Origin: Bacteroidaceae bacterium
GTDB lineage: Bacteria; Bacteroidota; Bacteroidia; Bacteroidales; Bacteroidaceae
Reading direction: 5' to 3'
Assembly (NCBI GenBank): GCA_024697785.1
Contig: JAILEU010000037.1
Span: 1-64,000 of the forward strand
DNA length: 64,000 nucleotides
The position numbers were made by a program, and so were the translations under genes. Positions within the stretch are counted from its first letter, which is position 1; each line of letters starts with the position of its first letter. Positions 18,877 to 55,441 of this stretch are shown here, in pieces. Under the pieces are notes generated by a model, which saw nothing but the letters and a program-made list of their open reading frames with translations, searched no databases and was not told the DNA's origin.

Positions 18877-19932
18877 ATGCACCTTGTTCTGGCCATCGAC
18901 TCCTTCAAGGGGTGCCTCACGTCGGCCGAGGCAAATGCCGCTGCCCGCGAGGGAGTGCTGCGTGCCCTGCCCCAGGCCGAGGTGACGGCTATACCCGTCA
19001 GCGATGGGGGCGAAGGGTGGCTGGAGGCTTTCCATGCGGCCAAAGGAGGGGCATACGTAGAGTCAACGGTCCTCGACCCCCTGATGCGCCCCGTTCGTGC
19101 CTCCTATCTGATGCAGGGCGAGCGGGCTGTTGTCGAGATGGCCCGTGCCAGCGGCCTGACGCTGCTCCGTCCCGAGGAACGCAACCCCTTGCTGGCTACC
19201 AGCTATGGCACGGGGCAGCTCGTTGCCGATGCTGTCCGACGGGGCTGTCGCGACATTCTTGTCGGTCTGGGCGGGAGCGCCACCAGCGATGCAGGCTGCG
19301 GCATGCTCCGTGCGCTGCGTGATGCCTTTGGCGAGGCGCTGGAGCCCCTTCGGGCTGTGCGCTTCACGATTGCCACCGATGTGGACAACCCGCTATATGG
19401 TCCTGAGGGGGCAGCGGAGGTCTTTGGCCCGCAGAAGGGCGCCACGCCCGCTATGATAGACGAACTCGACCGACGTGCCCAAGCCCTTGCCTTCGAATCC
19501 GCACGGCGCATGGGCTACGACTGTTCCCGTGAGCCAGGAGCCGGAGCCGCAGGAGGCTTGGGCTACGCTTTCATGCAACACCTTCATGCCCAGCGCCGTT
19601 CCGGCATAGAGCTGCTGCTCGACGCCTATCGTGCAGATGACGTGTTTGCCCATGCCGCCCTTGTCATCACCGGCGAAGGGAAAGCCGACGCCCAGACGCT
19701 GCGAGGCAAAGTCCCTGCGGGCATCCTTCGCAGGGCCCGCGGGCACCATCTCCCCGTCGTCCTCATTGCCGGACAAGTGGAGGACCGCAAACAGCTGCTC
19801 GCTGCCGGCTTCGCCCAGGTAGAGTGCATCCACCCCGTAGGCACCCCCCTCAACGAAGCCCTACGCCCCGACGTCTGCCGCAAAAACATCGCCAACAAAA
19901 TAGAGGATTTCCTCCTTGACAAGCTATATTGA
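18877..19932 (+). CDS. glycerate kinase
   Basis: 'LVLAIDSFKGCLTSAEAN', 'PVSDGGEGWLEAF', 'ILVGLGGSATSDAGCGM', 'VITGEGKADAQTLRGKVPAGI'. Confidence 0.94.
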   Translation: MHLVLAIDSFKGCLTSAEANAAAREGVLRALPQAEVTAIPVSDGGEGWLEAFHAAKGGAYVESTVLDPLMRPVRASYLMQGERAVVEMARASGLTLLRPEERNPLLATSYGTGQLVADAVRRGCRDILVGLGGSATSDAGCGMLRALRDAFGEALEPLRAVRFTIATDVDNPLYGPEGAAEVFGPQKGATPAMIDELDRRAQALAFESARRMGYDCSREPGAGAAGGLGYAFMQHLHAQRRSGIELLLDAYRADDVFAHAALVITGEGKADAQTLRGKVPAGILRRARGHHLPVVLIAGQVEDRKQLLAAGFAQVECIHPVGTPLNEALRPDVCRKNIANKIEDFLLDKLY

Positions 19933-20535
19933 TAGCAAACGAGGTTTATATACTAATTGATACTGGTCATTGACGACTGAAGCATTTGAGAAGATTGTTT
20001 CTCCCAATTTCATTATACCATTGGAATTATGCACATGGCCGAAAAGATGTAATTTCGGTTGTACATCTTTTTTTATTTTTTTGAACAGAACAGCATCTCC
20101 CCAATATGTCACATCCGAACTATCCAGAACGCCCAGCGGAGGTTGGTGGGTTATAAGTACATCCGTTTCCATCGGAATCTGAGCAACCATTTCTTCGTAG
20201 CGGTTTCCGTTTGTAGGTGTTGCTGTCAGCAGCTGCGTAAACATCGGAATCCCATAGAAACGAACTCCTTCAAGGGTTACGCCTGAACCATATAAATAGT
20301 GTGTGTCATCAGGTAGCCCATCAATATCTGCTCCATATAAACAAACATCATGATTGCCTGCGACAAAAGCTTTATGCTTATAGGGAAGGGCTATAAACCA
20401 GTTCAAGAAATCCATTACTTCTGCTTCAGTTCCATTCTTGGTGAAATCTCCAGAATGTACAATCACATCTGCATTTGGAAGGTCATTTAGCTGGCCATGA
20501 AAGCCGTGTGTGTCGGAAAGGTGTAAGATTTTCAT
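19924..20535 (-). CDS. metallophosphoesterase
   Basis: 'HLSDTHGFHGQL', 'VHSGDF', 'AGNHD', 'ITHQPP', 'LFGHVHNSNG'. Confidence 0.9.
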   Translation of the reverse strand: MKILHLSDTHGFHGQLNDLPNADVIVHSGDFTKNGTEAEVMDFLNWFIALPYKHKAFVAGNHDVCLYGADIDGLPDDTHYLYGSGVTLEGVRFYGIPMFTQLLTATPTNGNRYEEMVAQIPMETDVLITHQPPLGVLDSSDVTYWGDAVLFKKIKKDVQPKLHLFGHVHNSNGIMKLGETIFSNASVVNDQYQLVYKPRLLSI

Positions 20536-20540
20536 CCTTC

Positions 20541-21443
20541 TTATTTATATCGTTTAAGGATGGAACGGGCCTCTTTTATCATTTCTTCGCGTAGATGTTG
20601 TGGCTCCAGTACCTCAATATTGTTCGCCTTTGCAAGCAGTTCGCGTTTCAGTTCCGAGTTGATGCGTAGATTATACTCAAAGTCACAATACCCCTCGCCT
20701 GTCTCCACTACACGCTGGGACTTATGCAATGGAAGCGAACGGAAAAGGCCTACTTGCTTGCCGAACACGCGGATCCGGATTGTCTCAACCGGCTTGTTTT
20801 CTTCAACGGTAACTCCGATATCGTTTGAATAGTATGCCTCAGGATTGAAATCTACGGGATAGACAAACGTTTCGGTTGTCATTTCCGCGCTGATCATCCT
20901 GTCGAAGGCCAGTTGGCGCATTCCGTCCCTTTCTTTCGCCCATCCTAGCACATACCAACGTTGATGATGTTCCTTCATGCAGTACGGGTGTATATGGAAG
21001 GTCTGCTGATTATCTGTTCCCAAAGGTTTGTAGGTAATCATCAAAACTCGATTAAGCCGCATGGCTCCGATGACGGTAGAAAGAAACTCGGCACCTCCTG
21101 GCACGTCATCAAGCAAAATGCGTTCTGGCATCTGCTTACCTTCGTCAATCATGTTCCCAACGCTGAACGAATTGATGAGCCATTGCTTGGCTCGGTCTTT
21201 CTTGAGCGATTCCATATCCTCTATATAATACTTGTACCCGTCCGATGCATCACATTCGATGTTGATGTCAAACATTTCCTCTATCGCCTGACGATGCATG
21301 TGAAAAGTTCGGAGTGCAAGAGGTCTTCCGTCGCTGATGGCAGAAGTCTGCCAACGGCTGTTTATTTCCTCGAAACTGATTTTTTTGAACTGGAATATCG
21401 TATTGTATAACCAGATGTACCGTCCTAATGTTTTATTCGCCAT
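20541..21443 (-). CDS. WYL-domain transcriptional regulator
   Basis: 300 aa; 'RVLMITYKPLGTDNQQTFHIHPYCMKEHHQRWYVLGWAKERDGMRQLAFDRMISAEM'. Confidence 0.85.
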   Translation of the reverse strand: MANKTLGRYIWLYNTIFQFKKISFEEINSRWQTSAISDGRPLALRTFHMHRQAIEEMFDINIECDASDGYKYYIEDMESLKKDRAKQWLINSFSVGNMIDEGKQMPERILLDDVPGGAEFLSTVIGAMRLNRVLMITYKPLGTDNQQTFHIHPYCMKEHHQRWYVLGWAKERDGMRQLAFDRMISAEMTTETFVYPVDFNPEAYYSNDIGVTVEENKPVETIRIRVFGKQVGLFRSLPLHKSQRVVETGEGYCDFEYNLRINSELKRELLAKANNIEVLEPQHLREEMIKEARSILKRYK

Positions 21444-21625
21444 TTTGTATGTTCTATATCTTTGAGACTACAAAAATACAATGTTCCAATGCAAAAACCT
21501 TGCATATCAACAAAAATTTGTGATAATTCCCAAAAACTACGATGGTGTGAAGGGTTTTTGCACACCCACGTAGTTATTTCGCAGCAAAAAAGTTAATCAA
21601 CATCATTTCAAAAATTACTACAACA

Positions 21626-22177
21626 ATGAAAAGAAAACAGAAAAGAAACAACTCGCGTCGCAAGTTTACGCTTGATGAATGGATTGTGGTTCCTCGAAAC
21701 AGATTCATCGAATGTCCATTCGCATACAGTTACGGCGATGATGTAGATTACGACCGTTGGCTTGATTCTGAGAGTCGCATCGATCGTTGGAGACTTGCAA
21801 AAGTGAGATATGGGCTGGACGAGCTCGCTCACGATTCTGAACGGCTCGTACGCAAGGCTGTTGCCGAGATGGGTTATGCACAAGAAATCCTCTCGAAGGA
21901 TACCGATAAAGAGGTTCGCGAAGCAGTTGCCCGCACACAAGAACGCATGCGTAGGAAGTTGCATACTCAAGACCCTATAGCTCGTGCTGATGCCATAATG
22001 GCTTACGAATGGAAAGGGAAGAGAGAAAACAGACTCGTTAGAATAATAAGGAGAAAGTACAAGATAGACAGGAACATTATCGACCGCATCACTTTTGTAG
22101 ACGACGATGAGAGGTTTGGGAAAGCCCTCTTCACCAACTGGATGTATCCAGACTATCCGGAAGAATTCAAACAATAA
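21626..22177 (+). CDS. HEAT/LRV-like repeat protein, otherwise hypothetical
   Basis: 'ELAHDSERLVRKAVAEMGYAQEILSKDTDKEVREAVA' repeat-like helices. Confidence 0.6.
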   Translation: MKRKQKRNNSRRKFTLDEWIVVPRNRFIECPFAYSYGDDVDYDRWLDSESRIDRWRLAKVRYGLDELAHDSERLVRKAVAEMGYAQEILSKDTDKEVREAVARTQERMRRKLHTQDPIARADAIMAYEWKGKRENRLVRIIRRKYKIDRNIIDRITFVDDDERFGKALFTNWMYPDYPEEFKQ

Positions 22178-22183
22178 AACAGT

Positions 22184-22462
22184 ATGGACATAAAACCGAC
22201 AGACAAGAAAGACAAGCTCATCATCTTCTTTGATGAGATTAAGAGCGGCTCAGTTGAGTCGGCCGTCAAAGATCTATGCAAGATTAACATCGAAGACAGG
22301 GAGTATGAAAGGAAAAAAAGAAATCAAGCAGGAAGCGTTAGTCCACAGCCGGAAGTTTTTTTAGCCGTTTGTGTAAGCTGTGTGTGTCGGAAAAATGGAG
22401 CTTTTTGTCCCGTTTTTTTGATTTTAGTGTACAAATACGCACTATTCCCATTAAAACAATGA
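22184..22462 (+). pseudogene. truncated duplicate of the N-terminus of the ClpP-like gene
   Basis: First about 45 aa nearly identical to 22916-23503, then divergence to an unrelated tail. Confidence 0.8.
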
Positions 22463-22612
22463 TAATCAAATAATAGAATCAAAATAAGCCATTGTTGAAA
22501 TGTAATCAAAATATAAATAATGTTAACGCCTGTGAAAATCAGGCCGAAATTAACGTAAAAACGGCCTTCTCTGAAGAGGCTTTTCGTATTATATTATGCA
22601 CATATTTTAAAA

Positions 22613-22906
22613 ATGGTATTTATGAACGAGAGAAAAGAGAACTCAAATGAACAAAATCTTCGTGGAAAGGAGAAGGTGGAGAATCGCAAGTCAGGGGTGA
22701 AAAACTGGTGGGAAGAATTAAAGAAAGCTCAGCAGAGACATGCAGAACCGGAAGAAACCCTTGAAATCCTCAAAAATCTCGAGAAACAGCTCGAAGCAGA
22801 AAAAAAGCTCAGATTTTATGGTCGAGTAGCAGGGGGAGGAACATGGAGAGGTACGAGTGACCTCTCTGCCTCAAATTCCGATTTGATTATAAACAATTAT
22901 TGTTGA
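22613..22906 (+). CDS. hypothetical coiled-coil-prone protein
   Basis: 97 aa; ends 10 bp before the ClpP-like ORF. Confidence 0.5.
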   Translation: MVFMNERKENSNEQNLRGKEKVENRKSGVKNWWEELKKAQQRHAEPEETLEILKNLEKQLEAEKKLRFYGRVAGGGTWRGTSDLSASNSDLIINNYC

Positions 22907-22915
22907 GACATCGCT

Positions 22916-23503
22916 ATGGACATCAAACCTACAGACAAAAAAGACAAGCTCATTATCTTCTTTGATGATATTAAGAGCGGCTCAGTTGAGTCGGCCGTCA
23001 AAGACCTCTGCAAGATTAACATCGAAGACAGGGAGTATGAAAGGAAAAACAGAGAATGGGCAGAGAAGAACGGGCTCACGATTGAGTCCGTCCGTCTCGA
23101 CCCCATCCAGTTTCATTTCTCCACTTGTGGGGGCTCTTGCTACGACGGTCTTTCGCTCTACGACGCCATTGAGTCATCTTCCACACCCGTGGAGATCACG
23201 TGCTATGGCCGTATTATGTCAATGGGTATCGTTGTCCTATTAGCATCCAACGTGCGGAGGGCGCACAAGAATACCACCTTCCTCATTCACCAGGCAATGG
23301 GACTTGCCTTGGGCAGCCTCTCTGAAATGAAGGCAAGCGTAGAAGAGGTCAGCCGTGTAAACGCCATCCTTTTCAACATCATCACTACCAAGACCAAAGT
23401 AACCCAAGAACGGCTGAACGAAGTGCTGGAATACAAGCAGAACTGGATTCTCACAGCACAAGAGGCCTTAGAGTTGGGAATAATAACAGAAATCATTCAA
23501 TAA
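22916..23503 (+). CDS. ClpP-like serine protease-family protein
   Basis: 'CYGRIMSMGIVVLLAS' (Ser) and 'NTTFLIHQAMG' (His) align to ClpP; 'QNWILTAQEALELGI' C-terminal motif. Confidence 0.8.
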   Translation: MDIKPTDKKDKLIIFFDDIKSGSVESAVKDLCKINIEDREYERKNREWAEKNGLTIESVRLDPIQFHFSTCGGSCYDGLSLYDAIESSSTPVEITCYGRIMSMGIVVLLASNVRRAHKNTTFLIHQAMGLALGSLSEMKASVEEVSRVNAILFNIITTKTKVTQERLNEVLEYKQNWILTAQEALELGIITEIIQ

Positions 23504-23524
23504 CCATTTAAAAAATTAGCGATT

Positions 23525-23836
23525 ATGTTAGCAATTATCAACAACGGAAACCCCTGCATTTGCAACGACTATGGATCTATTATGACTCGTCTCTATCCCA
23601 ATGGAGCGCGATGTGTCTGCATGTCACCCAATCAGAAATACCTGGTTGCAGGCTTCGATGACGGTGTTCGTGTTTTTTCCCTTCCTTATGGAAGCCTGCA
23701 AAGTATCATCACGAGTATTCACGGGCCGGTCTGTGCCATCTCATTCAGGGATGAACAGTCTTTTGCTATCTCTTACAGCAAAGGAGGTGGAAGCATTTAT
23801 AATGTAAACGGAGGACAATTAGCATGTTTTATATAG
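23525..23836 (+). CDS. small WD40/beta-propeller-like protein
   Basis: 103 aa; 'CVCMSPNQKYLVAGFDDGVRVFSLPYGSLQSIITSIHGPVCAISFRDEQSFAISYSKGGGSIYNV' propeller blade-like repeats. Confidence 0.55.
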   Translation: MLAIINNGNPCICNDYGSIMTRLYPNGARCVCMSPNQKYLVAGFDDGVRVFSLPYGSLQSIITSIHGPVCAISFRDEQSFAISYSKGGGSIYNVNGGQLACFI

Positions 23837-24243
23837 GGAAAAATAAAAAAGCACTTTCGTTGGGGCTGAAGCCCAAACCTCGGCCTGCTTTTTATACGAT
23901 GAAGCCTGAAGAATACGAAGCAGCTTGCACGTATTTCTATTCCCATGCCTGGTTTTTCTTCAAGCATGCTGACATTATTTTAAAGGACAGCCGTCTCTAT
24001 CTTGCCCACGTACCCGCTCATAATGGGTTGATGTATTCTGGCGATTTCCCCGATGGAAATCTGTGGGTCTATCTCCAATGGTGGCTTAACGGACCTAAAT
24101 GCGTTCGAACAGACGAAGAGGGTAATCCAGCTTTAACGGTCCAGTTTGGAGGAAGCGAGTTGTCCGGATTAAATGAGTGCTTTCATGTAAGGCCTGATGG
24201 TAGGATAGAGGAGTATCGTACGAATTACTTTTCAAATATATGA
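23824..24243 (+). CDS. hypothetical protein
   Basis: 139 aa ORF overlapping the previous stop by 13 bp. Confidence 0.55.
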   Translation: MFYIGKNKKALSLGLKPKPRPAFYTMKPEEYEAACTYFYSHAWFFFKHADIILKDSRLYLAHVPAHNGLMYSGDFPDGNLWVYLQWWLNGPKCVRTDEEGNPALTVQFGGSELSGLNECFHVRPDGRIEEYRTNYFSNI

Positions 24244-24424
24244 CTTTCGTTTTCGAAGACAATAAAAGCGTTTGCTGCTATCAACCATCGGACGGGAAGG
24301 GTCTTTACCCTTCAGCAGGTTGTTAGCTATTTAGAAAGAAAAGACAGAATAAGGTTTTTACTTGGTTTTAAAAAAGAGTAAGAAACATAAACTAATTGTA
24401 TTCAATTGTTTAAAACGTATTATT

Positions 24425-26098
24425 ATGGGTGAGAAGAAAGAAACTGTTTGTTTTGAGAATACGAAAGCAGAACAGTCGAAGACGCTACTAGAGGCAATGG
24501 AGAACATTGTAGAAGAATCCTATAATTCGAGTATGAATGACCTTTTCAAAACCGTTGTGGCCAAAGACGTGCTGTTCCTCCGTCAGAGTTTCGGCATCAC
24601 CGAAGATCAGGCTATACTTTTTTCTATTTGCATGGAGAAAGGTCCGAGGAATGTACATTTCAACGACTTGGCCGAACACCTGAATCTTAGAAAAATCCGA
24701 ATCCTTAGCTATGCTGAAGACATAGACGCGCTGGTACATCGCCGATTGCTGCGCTACCGAAACGAGAAGTTCGAAAACTCCTTTGATGTTCCCGAAGCCG
24801 TAGTTAAAGCACTTAAGCACAACGAAGTTCTCACGATACCTAAGCACACAGACTTAGGCTGTTATGAACTGTTTGATGCAATGAACCAGTTGTTCGAAGA
24901 CCGTGATGATGACGCAATTTCACAAGAAACGCTGTATGTAGAACTGCAAGCTCTATTCAACGACAACCCGCAGGTTGATTTCGTAAGGAAAATCCAGAAT
25001 ATAGACTTTTTCAATCGTGAAGATTGGTTGCTGTTGCTTTTCTTTTGCCACATGTTGGTTAATAAAGATGACAATGACATTCGTTTTGGACAGATAGAGG
25101 ATGTCTTTGAATCTCGCTTGGATTTTATAATTGCTAAGAATGAATTGCGCTCCGGTGGACATAATCTGATTCGCGCGGGTCTAATTGAAAACGTCTGTGA
25201 GGACGGAATAGCTTCCACTTACCGTTTCAAACTCACGGAGCATACAAAGCGAAATTTACTTAGTGAAATAATGACGAACTTCTCTGAAAATAACACCTTG
25301 GATGTTATCAAGGCAGGGAATATGGTGAAGAAAGAGATGTTTTATGACGAAGAAAATCGCAAGCAGATAGATGAACTGCAATCTTTCCTCACGCCTGGGA
25401 AATACGATGAGATTCGCGAGCGCATGCAAGAAAAAGGTTTCCGCACAGGTTTTGCCTGCCTGTTTTACGGTGGACCTGGAACGGGGAAAACCGAAACTGC
25501 CTACCAACTGGCGCGCAAGACAGGACGCGACATCATGATTGTCGATGTGCCGCAAGTCAAGAGTAAATGGGTGGGCGATTCAGAGAAGAACATCAAGGAA
25601 ATCTTTGACCGATATCGCGAACAGGTGAAAAGGTCACAGGTAGCGCCCATCCTGCTCTTCAACGAAGCTGATGCCATCATCGGTATTCGCATGCAGGGTG
25701 CAGAAAGAGCTGTCGATAAGATGGAGAACAGTATCCAGAACATCATCCTGCAGGAGATGGAAACGTTGGATGGTATCATGATAGCCACTACGAACCTGAC
25801 GCAGAACCTTGACAAAGCCTTCGAGCGCCGCTTCCTCTATAAGATCAAATTCAATAAGCCTACTGTAGAAGCCCGAACTCAGATATGGCATTCCATGATT
25901 CCTGAACTTAGTGACAAGGACGTTCGCACGCTTGCATCAAACTACGATTTTAGTGGAGGACAGATTGAGAATATTGCCCGTCACTATGCCATCGACAACA
26001 TTCTGAATGGCCAGAGGGATGATGTTTTACCCATGCTCATCCGTCATTGTGACAATGAGCGATTAGACGATAGGAGTGCGAAAAGGATTGGTTTTTGA
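24425..26098 (+). CDS. AAA+ ATPase (CDC48/FtsH-type ATPase domain, C-terminal)
   Basis: Walker A 'GGPGTGKTETA', Walker B-like 'PILLFNEADAIIG', 'IATTNLTQNLDKAFERRFLYKIKF'. Confidence 0.9.
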   Translation: MGEKKETVCFENTKAEQSKTLLEAMENIVEESYNSSMNDLFKTVVAKDVLFLRQSFGITEDQAILFSICMEKGPRNVHFNDLAEHLNLRKIRILSYAEDIDALVHRRLLRYRNEKFENSFDVPEAVVKALKHNEVLTIPKHTDLGCYELFDAMNQLFEDRDDDAISQETLYVELQALFNDNPQVDFVRKIQNIDFFNREDWLLLLFFCHMLVNKDDNDIRFGQIEDVFESRLDFIIAKNELRSGGHNLIRAGLIENVCEDGIASTYRFKLTEHTKRNLLSEIMTNFSENNTLDVIKAGNMVKKEMFYDEENRKQIDELQSFLTPGKYDEIRERMQEKGFRTGFACLFYGGPGTGKTETAYQLARKTGRDIMIVDVPQVKSKWVGDSEKNIKEIFDRYREQVKRSQVAPILLFNEADAIIGIRMQGAERAVDKMENSIQNIILQEMETLDGIMIATTNLTQNLDKAFERRFLYKIKFNKPTVEARTQIWHSMIPELSDKDVRTLASNYDFSGGQIENIARHYAIDNILNGQRDDVLPMLIRHCDNERLDDRSAKRIGF

Positions 26099-26150: not shown

Positions 26151-26158
26151 TATCTTTG
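26151..26158 (+). promoter_or_regulatory. -7 promoter box TATCTTTG
   Basis: Consensus TAnnTTTG upstream of the truncated phosphoesterase. Confidence 0.5.
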
Positions 26159-26356
26159 CAAATAGTTTATTATTCCTGGGTTTATAATGACATGAATATG
26201 CTTGATTTCCCGAAGGCGAAGGGCATCGTGGTGAGTGGTGACATTCATGGCGAGTTCACGAAGCTTGTGTATAAGTGCTGCGTGCAATATGGTATGACGG
26301 ACACGGTGGTTATCGTGGCTGGCGACTGCGGCTTCGGGTTCGAGAATCATTTTTAA
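26156..26356 (+). pseudogene. truncated metallophosphoesterase
   Basis: 'GIVVSGDIHGEFTKLVYKCCVQYGMTDTVVIVAGDCGFGF' then early stop; 66 aa, lacks the rest of the catalytic domain. Confidence 0.7.
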
Positions 26357-26390: not shown

Positions 26391-27305
26391 ATGAAAAAGG
26401 TTAATAAAAAAACATTTGACTTAGCTATTAAACAATCGTTTCTTGAACATGCCCCAATACTTCCAGATATATTTATTACTGGTGAAGAGGTGTTCGGTCG
26501 TTATGTTACGACGAGAGGAATAACAAAATATCATGATATTTATTTCTCTGAAGACTTTGGAAAGGAGTTGAAATCTAGACTATCTGAAGATATTCTGAAA
26601 CGCTACAAAAAAGGAAACGGAAATGAATTAATTAGTAAGTTTTTCAGCGTGGCTTCATCAAGCCGCTTTGCTGTTTCCAACTTCACAACAAATGAGAATG
26701 GTGTTATCAAATACATCAACAGCTATAAAGGAGAGAAAATTGAAAAAATCGAATTTGAACATGGTTTACCTATTCAAAATGTAGAAGGAACACCCCCTCA
26801 ACTAGATGTTTGGTTTAAGACATCAGTTGATCACTTTGTGGAGGTGAAATGCCATGAAATATTTGACACTCACAAAATAGAATTTCGTACATCATATTCT
26901 AATAATTGTATTTTTAAGGAAATCCAAAATCATTATAAATTAGACCGTTCGAAAATTGTCGAGAGAAGAACTAACAATGAAAGAGTGAACACCTTTTTTT
27001 CTTTTCCAAGAGAAGCATTTGGCATAAGAACAAAGACAAACCATTTTGATTTGAAACAGTTTATCTGCCACCTAATGGGTATTGTATCAAATACAGAAAA
27101 GAAGGCAACAAAAGAATTCTGTTATTTGTTTTATCATCTTGACAATAGAGAATTTGATTCTATATATGAAGAACTCAATGCGGAAATAGAGGAAGTGAAA
27201 ACATCTTTTTCTTGGTTTTTTGAAAAATACAACATCAAATTCCATGTAATATTTAACAACCGTTTTTCAACTTTGCATACACATGTAAACCAGATGGAAC
27301 ATTAG
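26391..27305 (+). CDS. PD-(D/E)XK nuclease-like protein (PGN_0703-type putative restriction endonuclease)
   Basis: 'PPQLDVWFKTSVDHFVEVKCHE' = D-x(n)-ExK motif. Confidence 0.7.
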   Translation: MKKVNKKTFDLAIKQSFLEHAPILPDIFITGEEVFGRYVTTRGITKYHDIYFSEDFGKELKSRLSEDILKRYKKGNGNELISKFFSVASSSRFAVSNFTTNENGVIKYINSYKGEKIEKIEFEHGLPIQNVEGTPPQLDVWFKTSVDHFVEVKCHEIFDTHKIEFRTSYSNNCIFKEIQNHYKLDRSKIVERRTNNERVNTFFSFPREAFGIRTKTNHFDLKQFICHLMGIVSNTEKKATKEFCYLFYHLDNREFDSIYEELNAEIEEVKTSFSWFFEKYNIKFHVIFNNRFSTLHTHVNQMEH

Positions 27306-27369: not shown

Positions 27370-28674
27370 ATGAAAATTCAATTTCATCGTGGCCTAGAAC
27401 AGATTGGGGGCTGTATAACAGAAATCAGCACAGAGACGTCTCGTGTCTTTATTGATATGGGGCGGAATCTTCCTGGTTGTGGGGAGAAAATGACTCCAGA
27501 ACAGGAGACGACTATGGTGGAGAACATTTTTGCCAGCAATCCCAAAGAGCATGAGGCTGTCGTTTACACTCACGCCCACGAAGACCACGTGGGGTTGTTT
27601 GACGAGGTGCCCGAAAATGTGCCTCAGTATTTGGGTGAGGGTGGAAAGTTAATCCTTCTGACAAAATATAAATTGCTGAAGAAAAGGGATGAACAACTTC
27701 TAAAAAAAGAATTGGAAACAAGTCATTCTTTGTACGAAGGAAGTGGCGAAGTCTATGACAGATTGCTGGCACGTCTGAGTCAGTTCCACACCTGGGAACG
27801 CTCCAAGAGCCCAAAACCTTTTCGGATTGGCGACATCCAGATTACCCCATTCTTCAACTGCCATTCCATCTACGATTCCTATATGTTTCTGATTGAGGCA
27901 GAGGGGAAACGGATTTGGCACATGGGGGATTTCCGCAAGCATGGCTATCTGGGCAAACGCCTCTTTGATGTGCTTAGAATCTATGCCCGAAATATCGATG
28001 TCCTGATTACCGAGGGAACCATGCTGGGACGCTCCGACGAGTGCGTCCACGAAAGCGTCATATCAAATAAGATGGCTAACGTCATGCAAGCGTTCAAATA
28101 TGTCTTCGTCTTGGCGTCCTCCACAGACATCGAACGGCTCGCCGCTATCAAAGAGGCTACAAAGAAGGCACATAAAAGCCTGTATGTATGCTCTTCGATG
28201 ACAAGGGAAATGATGCGCCTGTTCACGGAACGGGAGAGCAGGATTTCAAAGGGACTATTCGACTTCCATCCTCATTTTTATAGAGAGGGCAGTTCATTGG
28301 AGCCGATGATGAAAAAAGGCTTTGTGATGGTTGTGGGAACAGGAGTGATGGAACGTGTTCAGGAGTTGTCTGCCAAGCTGCCAGAAGAAGAGACTCTGCT
28401 TATCTATTCCTCTTGGGACGGCTACTACAAGGACCCAGAGCAAATAAAAGTCAATCCCAGCTATCAACTCTTCCGTAGCCTTTTCCACAATGTGGTCGAT
28501 ATTCACACCTCCGGCCATGCAGACAGAAAAACGATTGAAGAGGTCGTAAGGATAGTCAATCCGAGGAAAGCTGTCGTCTGCATACATAAAGAGAAAGGAC
28601 TGTCTCTTGAGTCGTTGAACCTAAGTGAAGAGATAAAGAAAAAGATTGTAAACGAAAAGACGGTTTCATTATAG
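27370..28674 (+). CDS. MBL-fold hydrolase, RNase J / beta-CASP-like
   Basis: 'FHRGLEQIGGCITEI', 'VVYTHAHEDHVGL', 'RIWHMGDFRKHG', 'IHTSGHADRKTIEEVVRIVNPRKAVVCIH'. Confidence 0.8.
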   Translation: MKIQFHRGLEQIGGCITEISTETSRVFIDMGRNLPGCGEKMTPEQETTMVENIFASNPKEHEAVVYTHAHEDHVGLFDEVPENVPQYLGEGGKLILLTKYKLLKKRDEQLLKKELETSHSLYEGSGEVYDRLLARLSQFHTWERSKSPKPFRIGDIQITPFFNCHSIYDSYMFLIEAEGKRIWHMGDFRKHGYLGKRLFDVLRIYARNIDVLITEGTMLGRSDECVHESVISNKMANVMQAFKYVFVLASSTDIERLAAIKEATKKAHKSLYVCSSMTREMMRLFTERESRISKGLFDFHPHFYREGSSLEPMMKKGFVMVVGTGVMERVQELSAKLPEEETLLIYSSWDGYYKDPEQIKVNPSYQLFRSLFHNVVDIHTSGHADRKTIEEVVRIVNPRKAVVCIHKEKGLSLESLNLSEEIKKKIVNEKTVSL

Positions 28675-28720: not shown

Positions 28721-29045
28721 GTGACGGGTTGCGAAGGGGCGTTTCAACGTTAGAAGTGGCGTTTGCTGAGCGGTTTGGTTTTTAACCCGTCACAACTATC
28801 ATCAGCCTTCAGCGACTATCGTCTCATTTCGCAAAAAAGTCTAAATCTATAACGACAACGATTCTACGGTAGCGACGTTTGATTCTACGGTAGCGACGTT
28901 TGATTCTATTCCGCCAGCGTAGTGGGCTGTGAAATTAACGCACTACGCTGGCGAAATAACGTAGTGCGTTGACAGATTAACGCTCTACGCGGAGGGAGTA
29001 ACCGAAGCTCTATTCTGCGAGAAGCTGCCTATTGCGTGACGGGTT
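28721..29045. repeat. complex intergenic repeat/hairpin region
   Basis: GTGACGGGTT at 28721 and 29036 with inverted copy AACCCGTCAC at 28784; 21-bp direct repeat GATTCTACGGTAGCGACGTTT x2; 13-bp and 11-bp perfect hairpins at 28912-28970. Confidence 0.9.
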
Positions 29046-33114: not shown

Positions 33115-35682
33115 CTACAGGGGGGCGGCGGCTTTTACTTCCAGCTGAAGCTTGGTGGCTTCGGGGGCAGCCGTGACAACGATGGTGGCGTCGGAGGCTG
33201 GCATCTGCTCGACAAGCAGCTCTGACAGCTCGTCCTCGAGGTAGTTTTGCACGGCACGCTTCAGGGGACGGGCACCGAACTGCGGGTCGTAGCCCTTCGT
33301 GGCCAGAAACTCGCGCGCCGACGGCTCAACATCCACATGGGTGCCCAGGGCTTCCATGCGCTTGATGAGCTTGTCCACCTCGATGTCAACAATCCTGGCG
33401 ATGGCGGGTTTGTCGAGCGGGTCGAAGGTGATGATCTCGTCGATGCGGTTGATGAACTCGGGCGAGAAGGTCTTGTTGAGAGCTTTCTGTATGACGCTGC
33501 GCGACAGTTCTTTGTCGCTGACCTGTGCCTGTGTGCTGAATCCGATGCCGCGTCCGAAGTCCTTTAGCTGACGCGAACCGACATTGCTGGTCATGATGAT
33601 GACGGTGTTGCGGAAATCGACAAGACGCCCGTAACTGTCGGTGAGACGTCCTTCGTCGGTGACCTGCAGCAGGATGTTGAAGACGTCGGGATGAGCTTTC
33701 TCAATCTCGTCGAGCAACACGATGGAGTAGGGGCGACGGCGTACGCGCTCGGTGAGCTGTCCGCCCTCTTCGTAGCCCACGTAGCCCGGAGGGGCGCCGA
33801 TGAGACGGCTGACGGTGAACTTCTCCATGTACTCACTCATGTCGATGCGGATGAGGGCATCGGCAGTTCCGAACATATAGGCAGCCAATTCCTTGGCTAA
33901 TAGCGTCTTGCCAACACCCGTGGGGCCGAGGAACATAAAGGTGCCGATGGGGTGGTTGGGGTCTTTCAACCCCACACGGTTGCGCTGGATGGCACGGACA
34001 AGCTTCTCAATGGCGGTCTCCTGAGCGATGACGCATTTGTTCAGCTCGGCCTTCATGCCTTTCAGACGGATGCCTTCAGCCTGAGCGATGCGCTGAACGG
34101 GGATGCCCGACATCATGGAGACGACCTCGGCGACCCGTTCGGCATCGATGGTGATGCACTCTTCCTTATGCTGCTCGTCCCACTGTTCTTTCAGCTGCTT
34201 CAGCTCTTCCTGCAGGTGCTTCTCCTTGTCACGCAGTTCGGCTGCCACTTCAAAGTGCTGTGCCTTGACAGCCGCGTTCTTCTGGGCGGTGGTGTCAGAA
34301 AGCTCGCGCTCCTTTTCTTCCATCTCCGGCGAGGCGGTGATGTGGCTCAAGTGGGCTCGCGAGCCTGTCTCGTCCAGCACATCGATGGCCTTGTCGGGGA
34401 ACGAGCGGTCGGTGATGTAGCGCTCGGCCAGTTTAGCGCAGGCCTCCAGCGCATCGTCGGTGTAGCGTACGTTGTGGTGCTCCTCGTAACGGTCACGTAT
34501 GTTGCGGAGGATCTGCACAGTCTCGTCGAGCGTAGTCTGCTCCACCAGAACCTTCTGGAAACGGCGTTCCAGTGCCCCGTCCTTCTCGATGCTGTTGCGG
34601 TATTCGTTCAGCGTGGTGGCACCGATGCACTTTATCTCGCCACGGGCAAGTGCGGGTTTCAGCAGGTTGGCAGCATCCATCGAACCGGCAGCGTTTCCGG
34701 CACCGACGATGTTATGGATTTCATCGATGAAAAGGATGATATTGGGATTGCTCTTCAGTTCGTTGATGATGGAACGGATGCGCTCCTCAAACTGTCCGCG
34801 GTACTTCGTGCCGGCCACTACGGCGCCCATGTCGAGCGAGACAACACGTTTGTTGTAGAGCATGCGCGAGATGTCGTGCGACACGATGCGCATAGCCAGC
34901 CCCTCGACAATGGCCGACTTGCCAACGCCAGGTTCGCCGATGAGCATGGGGTTGTTCTTCTTACGGCGGCTGAGAATCTGGGCCAGACGCTCAATTTCCT
35001 TCTCACGTCCGACGACGGGGTCGAGCTTTCCCTGGGCTGCGGCTGCTGTCATGTCAACGCTGAAGTTATCCAGTACGGGGGTGTCGTTGTCGCCTTCCAC
35101 CTCGGTGGCGTGCGGGGCGGACGGGGCCTTTCGCGGGCTGTTGTCCATGCGGGGTGAGAAGAGGAGGTCTTCCTCGTCGTCCTCGTCGTTGTCGTTACTG
35201 TCGTTCGTGCGCCGGTTGTTCAAGCCGGTGTGTAGGTCTATCTCATTTCGGACGCGATTGTAAGTGATGCCCATAGCTGTCAGAGCCTGATTGGCCTGAG
35301 TGCCCTGTTGCTTCAGCAGAGCCAGCAGCAGATGTTGGGTGTCGGCGATGTCCTCGTGGCTCAGACGGGCCTCGAGCTGGGCAATTTTCATAATCTGGCT
35401 GGCAGCAAAGTCAAGTGACATTTCGTCAGCGGGGCTGTCAGACGGCGAAACGTCGGGCAGGGTTGGGCTCTTCATCTGTGTAGCGTCTTGCAACACCCGC
35501 TCGCGCAGCCGGCGCAAGTCAACCTGAATGGCTTGCAACAGGGTGGTGGCAGCATTGTCGCCGTCACGTAAAAGCCCCAGCAACAGGTGCTCAGGGGCAA
35601 TGACGGGACTGCACATACGCCGAGCTTCCTCGGCACTGTATGCGAGAACTTCTGCTATCTTGGTAGTGAATGAATTGTTCAT
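33115..35682 (-). CDS. clpC: ClpC-type AAA+ Clp protease ATP-binding subunit
   Basis: Clp N-domains, two AAA modules '[17 protein letters not shown]' and '[17 protein letters not shown]', UVR-like middle. Confidence 0.95.
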
Positions 35683-52768: not shown

Positions 52769-53137
52769 TTACTTACGGAACATGAAGTAGACGGCAGCAA
52801 TCAGGCAAAGGAATGCTGCCACATGATTCCAATGCAAGTGCTCGCCTTTGAACATGAACGTTATCATTACCGTAAACACGGTAAGCGAGATAACCTCTTG
52901 CATGATTTTCAGCTGAAAGAGTGAAAAAGGTCCGCCGTTTATGCTCGACCCCATACGGTTAGCAGGAATCATGAAACAATATTCCAGCAAGGCCACACCC
53001 CACGAGGCTAAAATAATCAGAATCAACGGCCAGTTGGTGATGATATTCATCTCCTGAAGTTTCAGGTTACCATACCAAGCCAACGTCATAAAGATGTTAG
53101 AAACTACTAACAGTAAAATAGTCCAAACTCCTGTCAT
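52769..53137 (-). CDS. DMT-family (DUF486) membrane protein
   Basis: 'ILLVVSNIFMTLAWYGNLK..WPLILIILASWGVALLEYCFMIPANRMG'. Confidence 0.9.
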   Translation of the reverse strand: MTGVWTILLLVVSNIFMTLAWYGNLKLQEMNIITNWPLILIILASWGVALLEYCFMIPANRMGSSINGGPFSLFQLKIMQEVISLTVFTVMITFMFKGEHLHWNHVAAFLCLIAAVYFMFRK

Positions 53138-53416
53138 ACAATTTTATATTATCAAATCTTCTTTATCTGTTTTCTTTCCATTCGCGACGTTTTTTCGAAT
53201 CGTCAAGATACGTTCGATTTTTTCGGCTGCAAAGATAGTGCAAGGCTAGAGAAATGCCAAATTTATTTGTGCGTTTCCAAGACGCAGCCTATCTAAAACA
53301 AAGTTTAAGATAGTTCAAGAATGCGATTAAAAGAAGGCAAGGAGAAAAGTTTTTTTCCGAGCAAAGCGGATGGCCATGAAAAACACGCGGGTACAGCATA
53401 AAACGTATTTTTCCAA

Positions 53417-53610
53417 GAGGTATCGGTGGTGTCGGAAGTAGTCTGTAATAAGAAGATTTTCAATCGCAAACCCACCGCCCCTTTCTTTGGTAATGGTGGA
53501 GATATTCGGTTTTTCAATGCCTTATCTTACAGAGTCACCGACACTCCTCTGTAAGGGGTATCGTTGGCAAACAATTTGGATGACAGAAGATTGCATCACA
53601 TCACCGATAC
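53417..53610. repeat. imperfect inverted-repeat intergenic element with internal hairpin
   Basis: GAGGTATCGGTGGTGT near 53417 versus ACATCACCGATACCCTC near 53594; internal CTTACAGAG (53527-53535)/CTCTGTAAG (53548-53556). Confidence 0.55.
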
Positions 53611-53745
53611 CCTCTACTCCCGTTGGAACAAACTACTATTATAAAGCGTACTTGCATTAACCTGTGTCCACAACTTAAAATTTGGCGCTGTGCTCAAGGC
53701 GTTAAATTCTGCTTTCACAGCCCAATGGGCTACGCTCACAGACCA

Positions 53746-53808
53746 AGCAACTGGCAAATTAGAATAAGCATCTGGCAAGATAGAATAAGCATCTGAGAAG
53801 ATAGAAAG
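53746..53808. repeat. 21-bp tandem repeat x3
   Basis: agcaactggcaaattagaata|agcatctggcaagatagaata|agcatctgagaagatagaaag. Confidence 0.9.
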
Positions 53809-53908
53809 ACTTTAAGATGAAAGCATGATTATTCGCGAGAAACCCCTTTAAGCCTTTTGGGACGTTATAGGATATTTTTCGGATAATCATAAATTTTTGG
53901 CGATTTTA

Positions 53909-53940
53909 CTTGCTTTTATGCTATCCGTGCACTATCTTTG
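53909..53940 (+). promoter_or_regulatory. Bacteroidota-type promoter
   Basis: CTTG, 20-nt spacer, TATCTTTG (53933-53940); supports CDS start at 53972. Confidence 0.65.
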
Positions 53941-53971
53941 CCTTTTAAAAAAAGGAAAAAGGAAACAAGCG

Positions 53972-55441
53972 ATGAAATCTCACATCATAAAAATGGCCCT
54001 TTCGGCAACGACGGCGTTGATGTTCTGTTGTGGAATGGCTCATGCCCAAACCTTGGAGCAGCTGGCACGACAGAACTTCCTGGCTGGAAACTACGCCGAA
54101 GCCTTGCCGCAGTTTAAACGTTGCCTTAAGACGGCTCCACGTGACTCGCGCATCAACTTTTGGTATGGCGCCTGCTGCATCGAGACGGGCGAAATCGACG
54201 AGGCACTCCCCTATCTAGAGTTTGCCGTCAGCAAAAAAGTGCAGAATGCCTACCGTTATCTGGCCCGCTACTATTACCTGAAGGGCAACTATGCCGAAGC
54301 CGAGGAGAACCTCGAGACTTTTCTGGACAACGCCACTCCTGGCGACTCCATTTATGTTCAGGCTACCGGCTTTCTGCAGGACATCCGCTCTCGGCTGAAG
54401 TTCATGCGCCGTGTGGAAAAGGTCATCTTCATCGATAGCATAGTGGTGGACAAACCTTCTTTCCTGAAGGCTTATCATCCGGGCAGCGAGGCCGGTGCGG
54501 TCTATTCGCTAAAGGAGTATTTTGGCGATGACTACGCGTTGGATGGCGCCATATTCCTTTCTGAGATGGGCAACCGACGTTTCTACACCTGTGCCGCCGA
54601 CAGCGGACGCATTAGCCTCTGCACCAGCTACCGCATGACAGACACCTGGAGCGCACCACAACCCTTGGAAGGATTGCCCGACGACGGTGACAATAACTAT
54701 CCCTTCATGCTCTCCGACGGCATCACCTTCTACTATGCCAACAACGGTCCTGAGAGCATGGGAGGCTACGACATCTTCGTCACCCGCTACAATTCCGACA
54801 CGGATCGTTTCCTGCGCTCCGACAACATCGGCATGCCCTTTAACTCTCCTTCCAACGACTACATGATGGTTGTGGATGAACTGAACGGACTCGGCTGGTT
54901 TGCCTCCGACCGCCGGCAGCCGGAAGGCTGGGTCTGCATCTACACCTTCATCTGGAACGAAGGGAAGAAAAGCTACTTCGACATGGATGCCGACGACCCT
55001 GACGCCATCCGCCGTGCAGCCGACATCATCTCCATCGCCGAATCACAGACCGACGACGAAGCCGTCCGCAAAGCCTCTCAAAGCCTTTTCAAGCTGATGC
55101 TCGGCGAGCAGAACATGCTGAACGGCAGCCAGCCCACCAGCAGAGGCGAATTCACCTTTGTGCTCGACGACATGAAGGACTATCATCATCTCACCGACTT
55201 CCACAGCCCCGAAGCGCGCAAGCTGTTCGAGAGCTACCTGAAGGCGAAGAACGAGCTGGACATCGTCGCCGCCAAGCTCGACAGCAAGCGCGACGCCTAT
55301 GCCACAGCCTCCGCCAGCAAGCGCGATGACCTAGCAGCCGAACTTCTCATCCTCGAAGCTGACTACGACACGCTGACCGACGAGGTCATCGAGCTGGAAA
55401 AGCAAGCCCGCAACACCGAAAAAACCTTCCTTTCCCAATAA
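53972..55441 (+). CDS. secreted TPR / PD40 beta-propeller-like protein
   Basis: Signal peptide, TPRs, then 'DGDNNYPFMLSDGITFYYANNGPESMGGYDIFVTRYN' WD40-like/PD40 repeats. Confidence 0.8.
   Translation: MKSHIIKMALSATTALMFCCGMAHAQTLEQLARQNFLAGNYAEALPQFKRCLKTAPRDSRINFWYGACCIETGEIDEALPYLEFAVSKKVQNAYRYLARYYYLKGNYAEAEENLETFLDNATPGDSIYVQATGFLQDIRSRLKFMRRVEKVIFIDSIVVDKPSFLKAYHPGSEAGAVYSLKEYFGDDYALDGAIFLSEMGNRRFYTCAADSGRISLCTSYRMTDTWSAPQPLEGLPDDGDNNYPFMLSDGITFYYANNGPESMGGYDIFVTRYNSDTDRFLRSDNIGMPFNSPSNDYMMVVDELNGLGWFASDRRQPEGWVCIYTFIWNEGKKSYFDMDADDPDAIRRAADIISIAESQTDDEAVRKASQSLFKLMLGEQNMLNGSQPTSRGEFTFVLDDMKDYHHLTDFHSPEARKLFESYLKAKNELDIVAAKLDSKRDAYATASASKRDDLAAELLILEADYDTLTDEVIELEKQARNTEKTFLSQ

Follow-up and report, generated by a model that had tools for sequence, protein, structure and literature searches.

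The Hsp100 ATPases ClpX, ClpA and ClpC dock on ClpP through a tripeptide, IGF or VGF, held in an internal loop, and the ClpP they serve has an axial loop and a hydrophobic apical pocket. In the proteasomal ATPases PAN/Rpt and the actinobacterial Cpa, which work with the 20S proteasome, the docking motif (HbYX in PAN/Rpt) is short and closes a flexible C-terminal tail (PMC6017811, PMC11475706), while in IetAS a classical AAA ATPase, IetA, is found near a subtilisin-like serine peptidase, IetS. WYL-type regulators are known from defence loci (BrxR; PMC9122601) and as regulators acting on DNA damage (PafBC, DriD and SiwR; PMC11804915, PMC12340889, PMC10693628), and MoxR-class ATPases take part with vWA proteins in ternary conflict systems (PMC7159879). 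Here we analyzed a low-G+C island in a 64,000-nucleotide stretch of a Bacteroidaceae genome (contig JAILEU010000037.1; the whole stretch is called the window below), in which a WYL regulator accompanies a ClpP-like protein, two probable nucleases and an AAA+ ATPase of the classical clade that ends in IGF. The presence of this tail throughout the ATPase family is the strongest finding of the analysis and the point most worth pursuing.

The ATPase gene is given first; E values and family assignments of open reading frames (ORFs) in the window are from Pfam, with its curated cut-offs applied.

24425-26098, + strand: classical-clade AAA+ ATPase (PF00004, E=1.9e-24)

Translation probably starts at ATG 24425 rather than at the listed TTG 24362. 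The window protein ends in RIGF, and G537-F538 are invariant at the C-terminus in a 21-row alignment of the family. When the last 14 residues were searched by rule for [IVLM]GF, 56 of 57 family members carried it; by the same rule it was absent from all 22 IetA-like ATPases and from all seven more distant AAA proteins (L141-L147, six of them eCIS-type), and these two control sets ruled out a generic AAA feature. Residues 529-538 are predicted to be disordered (pLDDT <50), and, as far as sequence can tell, a tripeptide that stays constant while the disordered tail around it varies has the look of a docking motif. That the tail is a signal for docking on ClpP is a serious possibility, which we place somewhat short of an even chance. 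More tentative is the broader proposal that a widespread PAN/Vps4-like family of AAA unfoldases, resident in Bacteroidota megaplasmids, prophages and WYL-linked islands, recruits ClpP by a C-terminal IGF that would be convergent with HbYX and so degrades proteins in phage infection or DNA stress. In the same genome, ClpX has VGY at the place where ClpC, an Hsp100 ATPase, carries IGF in an internal loop; this ClpC-type gene, probably core, lies in the window itself (33115-35682), in high-G+C DNA at a distance of 7 kb from the island.

The remainder of the protein can likewise be compared with the described systems. Among 21 aligned members, the motor has Walker A GGPGTGKT, a sensor 1 Asn, RR, GGQIEN and a pore loop of the katanin/Vps4 type, KWVGDSEK. 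In a structure model built from 7 sequences (mean pLDDT 79.8), the nearest folds to the motor (residues 268-534) are those of PAN/Rpt, Vps4, spastin and FtsH (Z 20-21), with the proteasome-activating type as the best match. The N-terminal region, about 260 residues long, is modeled as all-helical, with two segments (~41-102 and ~179-259, counted from 24482) that resemble winged helices in secondary structure. Thus the ATPase differs from PAN/Rpt in this N-terminal region and in having [IVLM]GF where those proteins have HbYX, and no 20S gene was noted beside it; it shares with the Clp systems the IGF tripeptide and a nearby ClpP-family peptidase but belongs to the classical clade, with the tripeptide at the C-terminus. 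Profiles of IetA gave the best defence-library matches of the motor domain (1.7e-32), and IetA, too, belongs to the classical AAA type and has a serine-type peptidase close by; the island protein differs by its N-terminal region and tail, and Pfam found no peptidase S8 among the window neighbours. As far as our searches show, the family has not been described, and a literature search, which covered few subscription papers, found nothing specific on this gene combination.

The island lies in a fragmented assembly of 3.24 Mb. G+C is about 0.62 before it, 0.35-0.46 between 20 and 29 kb and 0.64 after it, and the flanks are high-G+C core genes. The initial annotation had delimited a self-contained module at 20541-26098. 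Because the low-G+C block extends past 26098, two further genes, at 26391-27305 and 27370-28674, fall inside the island, which spans about 19.92-28.67 kb; a self-contained unit is not supported, the island running on into a nuclease-like gene (NUC) and a beta-CASP gene (MBL) that recur with WYL. The other features are as follows.

19924-20535, - strand: calcineurin-like metallophosphoesterase (Pfam E=2.7e-14)
20541-21443, - strand: WYL-WCX transcription regulator, read in the direction opposite to the island operon (PF13280, E=1.9e-14, 53.8 bits; WCX, 4.6e-12, 46.5 bits; both above cut-off)
21444-21625: intergenic region between WYL and the + strand run, a probable operator/promoter judging from the gene arrangement
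21626-22177, + strand: HEAT/LRV-like helical-repeat protein, 183 aa (weak HEAT match, E=0.014, below cut-off)
22183-22321, + strand: truncated duplicate of the 5' end of the clpP-like gene, 139 nt, 94% identical to 22915-23053
22322-22914, + strand: 593 bp separating the clpP 5' copies; it includes a 97-aa ORF (22613-22906) that is doubtful as a gene
22916-23503, + strand: ClpP-like serine peptidase (PF00574, E=4.5e-24)
23525-23836, + strand: WD40-like fragment, 103 aa, with no more than one or two blades (E=4e-4 for WD40, under the cut-off)
23824-24243, + strand: stand-alone 139-aa domain, here called U139
26156-26356, + strand: remnant that looks, by eye, like the opening part of another metallophosphoesterase, unlike that at 19924-20535 (GDIHGEF..VAGDCGFGFE)
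26391-27305, + strand: nuclease-like NUC with a PD-(D/E)XK-type motif (LDVWF..FVEVK, by eye; no Pfam family)
27370-28674, + strand: beta-CASP metallo-beta-lactamase nuclease MBL (profile matches)

The genes named in the initial annotation are real and correctly placed, and Pfam is clear for the metallophosphoesterase, WYL, ClpP-like and AAA+ proteins; for the HEAT/LRV-like and propeller-like genes the ORFs stand, with family matches that are weak. Just 3' of MBL, close to where the low-G+C block ends on the right, is a perfect 21-nt tandem pair (28860-28901), and elsewhere in the window G+C drops locally to 0.39 (53000-54000).

The distribution of the ATPase was examined in 251 genomes from 30 genera of the family. 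Relatives were found in 54 of these genomes and 19 genera, at 30 to 66% identity, and also on Prevotella and Segatella megaplasmids, on one Aliarcobacter plasmid and on viral contigs, where one copy (L150) lies among tail and lysis-type genes in the usual position of prophage cargo; annotated phages gave no match at 1e-20. Their neighbours vary by locus and include WYL, U139, nucleases, GmrSD pairs and peptidases. The neighbourhoods of 57 copies ruled out a fixed conserved operon, and the conserved gene order against which the initial annotation was to be checked was not found: clpP, AAA+ and WYL occur together at only one other locus. WYL genes were mapped in 39 ATPase-bearing genomes (77 matches). 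Under the assumption of uniform placement, WYL lay within 10 kb of 14 of 53 ATPase copies (0.79 expected) and of 7 of 15 MBL copies (0.27 expected), and the ATPase lay within 10 kb of 8 of 10 U139 copies (0.12 expected), the U139 profile having been built partly from ATPase loci. The earlier view of a WYL-linked gain/loss island is thus upheld, the AAA+-WYL link being far above chance and relatives being carried on megaplasmids and viral contigs. We hold it very likely that the region is a mosaic island gained by horizontal transfer and drawn from a gene pool that Bacteroidales exchange around WYL regulators; it looks like one of the sets assembled from this pool, whose genes probably act against phage or DNA stress.

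Peptidases recur near the ATPase, as a U139-SprT fusion and a YgjP-like metallopeptidase. U139, which gave no match in plasmids, phages or viral contigs, is fused at other loci to a coiled coil or to an SprT-like metallopeptidase and adjoins the ATPase; the SprT-like fusion is at L064:12865-13689 (PF10263, 1.9e-9), near an ATPase copy. Two loci on Prevotella/Segatella plasmids (L137:11185-14701 and L139) have bpMoxR, vWA and YgjP-like metallopeptidase genes beside an ATPase relative. Distant relatives at five loci (L066, L130, L132, L133 and L152) are adjoined by homologous ADP-ribosyltransferase-like proteins with DUF3990 matches, several of whose genes have, by eye, a YbiA/NADAR-like neighbour.

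Several features of the window would suit a decaying assembly of unrelated cargo at an insertion hotspot with no joint function: the truncated clpP copy and 593-bp stretch, the metallophosphoesterase remnant, the WD40 fragment, and the variation of gene sets among loci. The 593-bp stretch, searched as a possible known repeat, was absent from 18 other genomes of the genus. We consider such decay improbable, since the recurrent pairings are far above chance, the frames of WYL, clpP, U139, AAA+, NUC and MBL are long and intact, and the U139-AAA+ and WYL-NUC-MBL linkages span genera.

The two genes 3' of the ATPase gene link the island to a wider arrangement. MBL relatives occur in 40 of the 251 genomes, often beside WYL, and WYL and NUC are immediate neighbours at four loci (L128, L067, L241 and L242), the NUC relative in L241 being about 50% identical; no NUC was found in plasmids. 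On one strand, L241 reads WYL, NUC, sigma-70-like, unknown, DNA polymerase III alpha-like fragment, unknown, MBL. Because WYL-NUC-MBL recurs elsewhere, it is taken as a pre-existing frame, inside which the HEAT-ClpP-WD40-U139-AAA+ run of the window sits. The sigma-70-like protein and polymerase fragment of the L241 run (L241:213-6662) are possible decoys of host transcription and replication proteins. Relatives of the metallophosphoesterase adjoin AAA+, WYL or MBL at L056, L128 and L139; these neighbourhoods place it among the recurring genes of the pool, as more than a boundary marker. The initial annotation had the island bracketed by an intact and a truncated metallophosphoesterase. An intact gene and the start of another are indeed present, but the two are not copies of one gene, because the segment at 26156-26356, which had no Pfam match, resembles by eye another subfamily, and the purely bounding role does not hold.

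The suggested defence-island context was also supported. GmrSD_N genes, eight in total, lie within 5 kb of an ATPase copy at four loci (in G175, G178, G139 and G018), and the ATPase, WYL and two DUF262 genes occur together on one Prevotella and one Chryseobacterium plasmid; GmrSD/DUF262 pairs and a DEDDh exonuclease are among the neighbours of the relatives. Other neighbours match the PADLOC families HEC-06, MzaA, SspE-like and candidate PDC, matches that are indicative only, with no matched control set. On the window island, PADLOC (2023 set) returned generic WYL and AAA matches and no specific component model. As at BrxR-controlled loci, WYL stands here beside probable defence genes, but the island holds no BREX or other named system, and BrxR-family homologues have been reported mainly from Proteobacteria (PMC9122601), whereas the island belongs to Bacteroidales. 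By the tests run, the gene combination is no known system, and its parts are of known kinds.

A role in defence or DNA stress is, on this genomic evidence, rather probable. It might be narrowed to a DNA-damage response, in which WYL would sense single-stranded DNA and control nucleases and repair-like genes, phage defence being at most a side effect. The precedents PafBC, DriD and SiwR agree with this, as do the DnaE fragments, DEDDh exonuclease and DinB at ATPase-related loci; the GmrSD pairs and the prophage cargo position point to defence, however, and the window island has no repair polymerase. We therefore regard this narrower account as doubtful.

In the reading we favour, the island is a WYL-controlled assembly against phage or DNA stress, in which the ATPase works as an unfoldase that probably feeds ClpP and two nucleases accompany it; taken whole, it has in our judgement an even chance of being right. 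WYL would hold the island down and release it on binding a nucleic-acid signal produced when phage infects or DNA is damaged; BrxR, DriD, PafBC and SiwR are the precedents. The AAA+ hexamer would then capture proteins via its N-terminal winged-helix region or via helpers (U139, the HEAT-like protein), unfold them with its W-V-G pore loops and dock by its IGF tail on a ClpP chamber, that of the housekeeping ClpP being likelier than the island protein, while the two nucleases would attack nucleic acid in parallel.

A number of observations weigh against this reading. The Walker B motif is LLFNEAD family-wide, with Asn for the usual Asp, which may affect the ATPase rate. No family member has a documented activity in defence, and against the nearest defence model, NCBIfam IetA, the island ATPase scored 103.6 bits, below the cut-off of 510 bits. 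WYL is missing within 10 kb of 39 of 53 ATPase copies, which contig ends explain in some cases and not in many, and just two ATPase loci have this ClpP-like gene: the window and L041 (the same place as L103). Two residues of the ClpP triad are kept in the window ClpP-like protein (Ser102 and His125), but the third position is Asn176, where both relatives have Asp. Alignment to E. coli ClpP and to the genome's own housekeeping ClpP indicates that the protein begins past the axial-loop region and so has no axial loop. Positions of its IGF pocket are mostly polar compared with E. coli ClpP (F49K, Y60Q, Y62H, F82S, I90T, F112R, L114H).

These properties also bear on a dedicated two-part protease formed by the ATPase and the island ClpP-like protein, an idea that goes back to the initial annotation; the HEAT-like, WD40-like and U139 proteins would then serve as its substrate adaptors. 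In its favour, the ClpP-like protein keeps the catalytic Ser and His, the ATPase has the IGF tail, and at L041, the only other locus with a close ClpP relative, orthologues of both (54% for AAA+ and 57% for ClpP-like) occur with WYL, followed by a DEDDh exonuclease and two GmrSD/DUF262 proteins. At that locus, however, WYL sits between clpP and AAA+, so the two do not form one operon; nearly all other ATPase copies have no ClpP-like neighbour; and no WD40-like gene was found near other ATPase copies, nor any HEAT-like relative in plasmids or at other ATPase loci, the helical protein upstream of clpP at L041 showing no similarity to it. We consider this arrangement unlikely, and degradation by the island's own ClpP-like protein equally so. 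In contrast, the pocket of the housekeeping ClpP is mostly hydrophobic (Y62, F82, I90, L114, L189), and the tail fits that protein better because the island protein has neither axial loop nor IGF pocket. The initial annotation's regulated proteolysis is accordingly plausible as a theme, while its premise that Clp-type proteolysis needs an AAA+ partner is not simply transferable.

The ClpP-like protein may act alone, as head-maturation relatives of ClpP do, or join a mixed ring. It matches phrog_94 (1e-28), which comprises such relatives; its second-best PDB match, 4jcq, has Asn at the same triad position; and it carries a 21-aa insertion. Its structure prediction was too poor for use (pLDDT 43). 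Close relatives were found at only the RUG11961 locus among genome contigs, in no viral contigs, and elsewhere in the order only in G330, near a reverse transcriptase and a helicase and without an ATPase of the island family. In G330, which belongs to another Bacteroidales family, the ClpP-like gene lies 3' of reverse transcriptase, receiver-type and helicase genes (L106:9266-18426).

Alternatively, the ATPase might be a non-proteolytic remodelling or threshold-setting enzyme, comparable to TRIP13 or to the MoxR of ternary conflict systems, that switches partners or nucleases, with IGF binding a neighbouring subunit or another partner. The fold matches Vps4, spastin and TRIP13 as well as it does the proteasomal ATPases, the Walker B substitution runs throughout the family, most copies have no adjacent peptidase gene, and bpMoxR-vWA genes adjoin the ATPase on two plasmids, although no MoxR or vWA was found among the annotated island genes of the window. 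Against this, the tail tripeptide matches the Clp docking motif, and the tail is predicted to be disordered rather than packed on the motor, in a single-chain model that is blind to contacts between subunits. We judge remodelling possible, if on balance not probable.

If the tail does dock on ClpP, then an ATPase that is not of the Hsp100 clade would be using this protease, and mobile islands could borrow the host protease chamber for regulated killing or repair; the proposal amounts to a three-residue, directly testable hypothesis for a family present in about a fifth of the sampled genomes. The WYL-NUC-MBL and U139-AAA+ linkages are clear candidates for defence screening.

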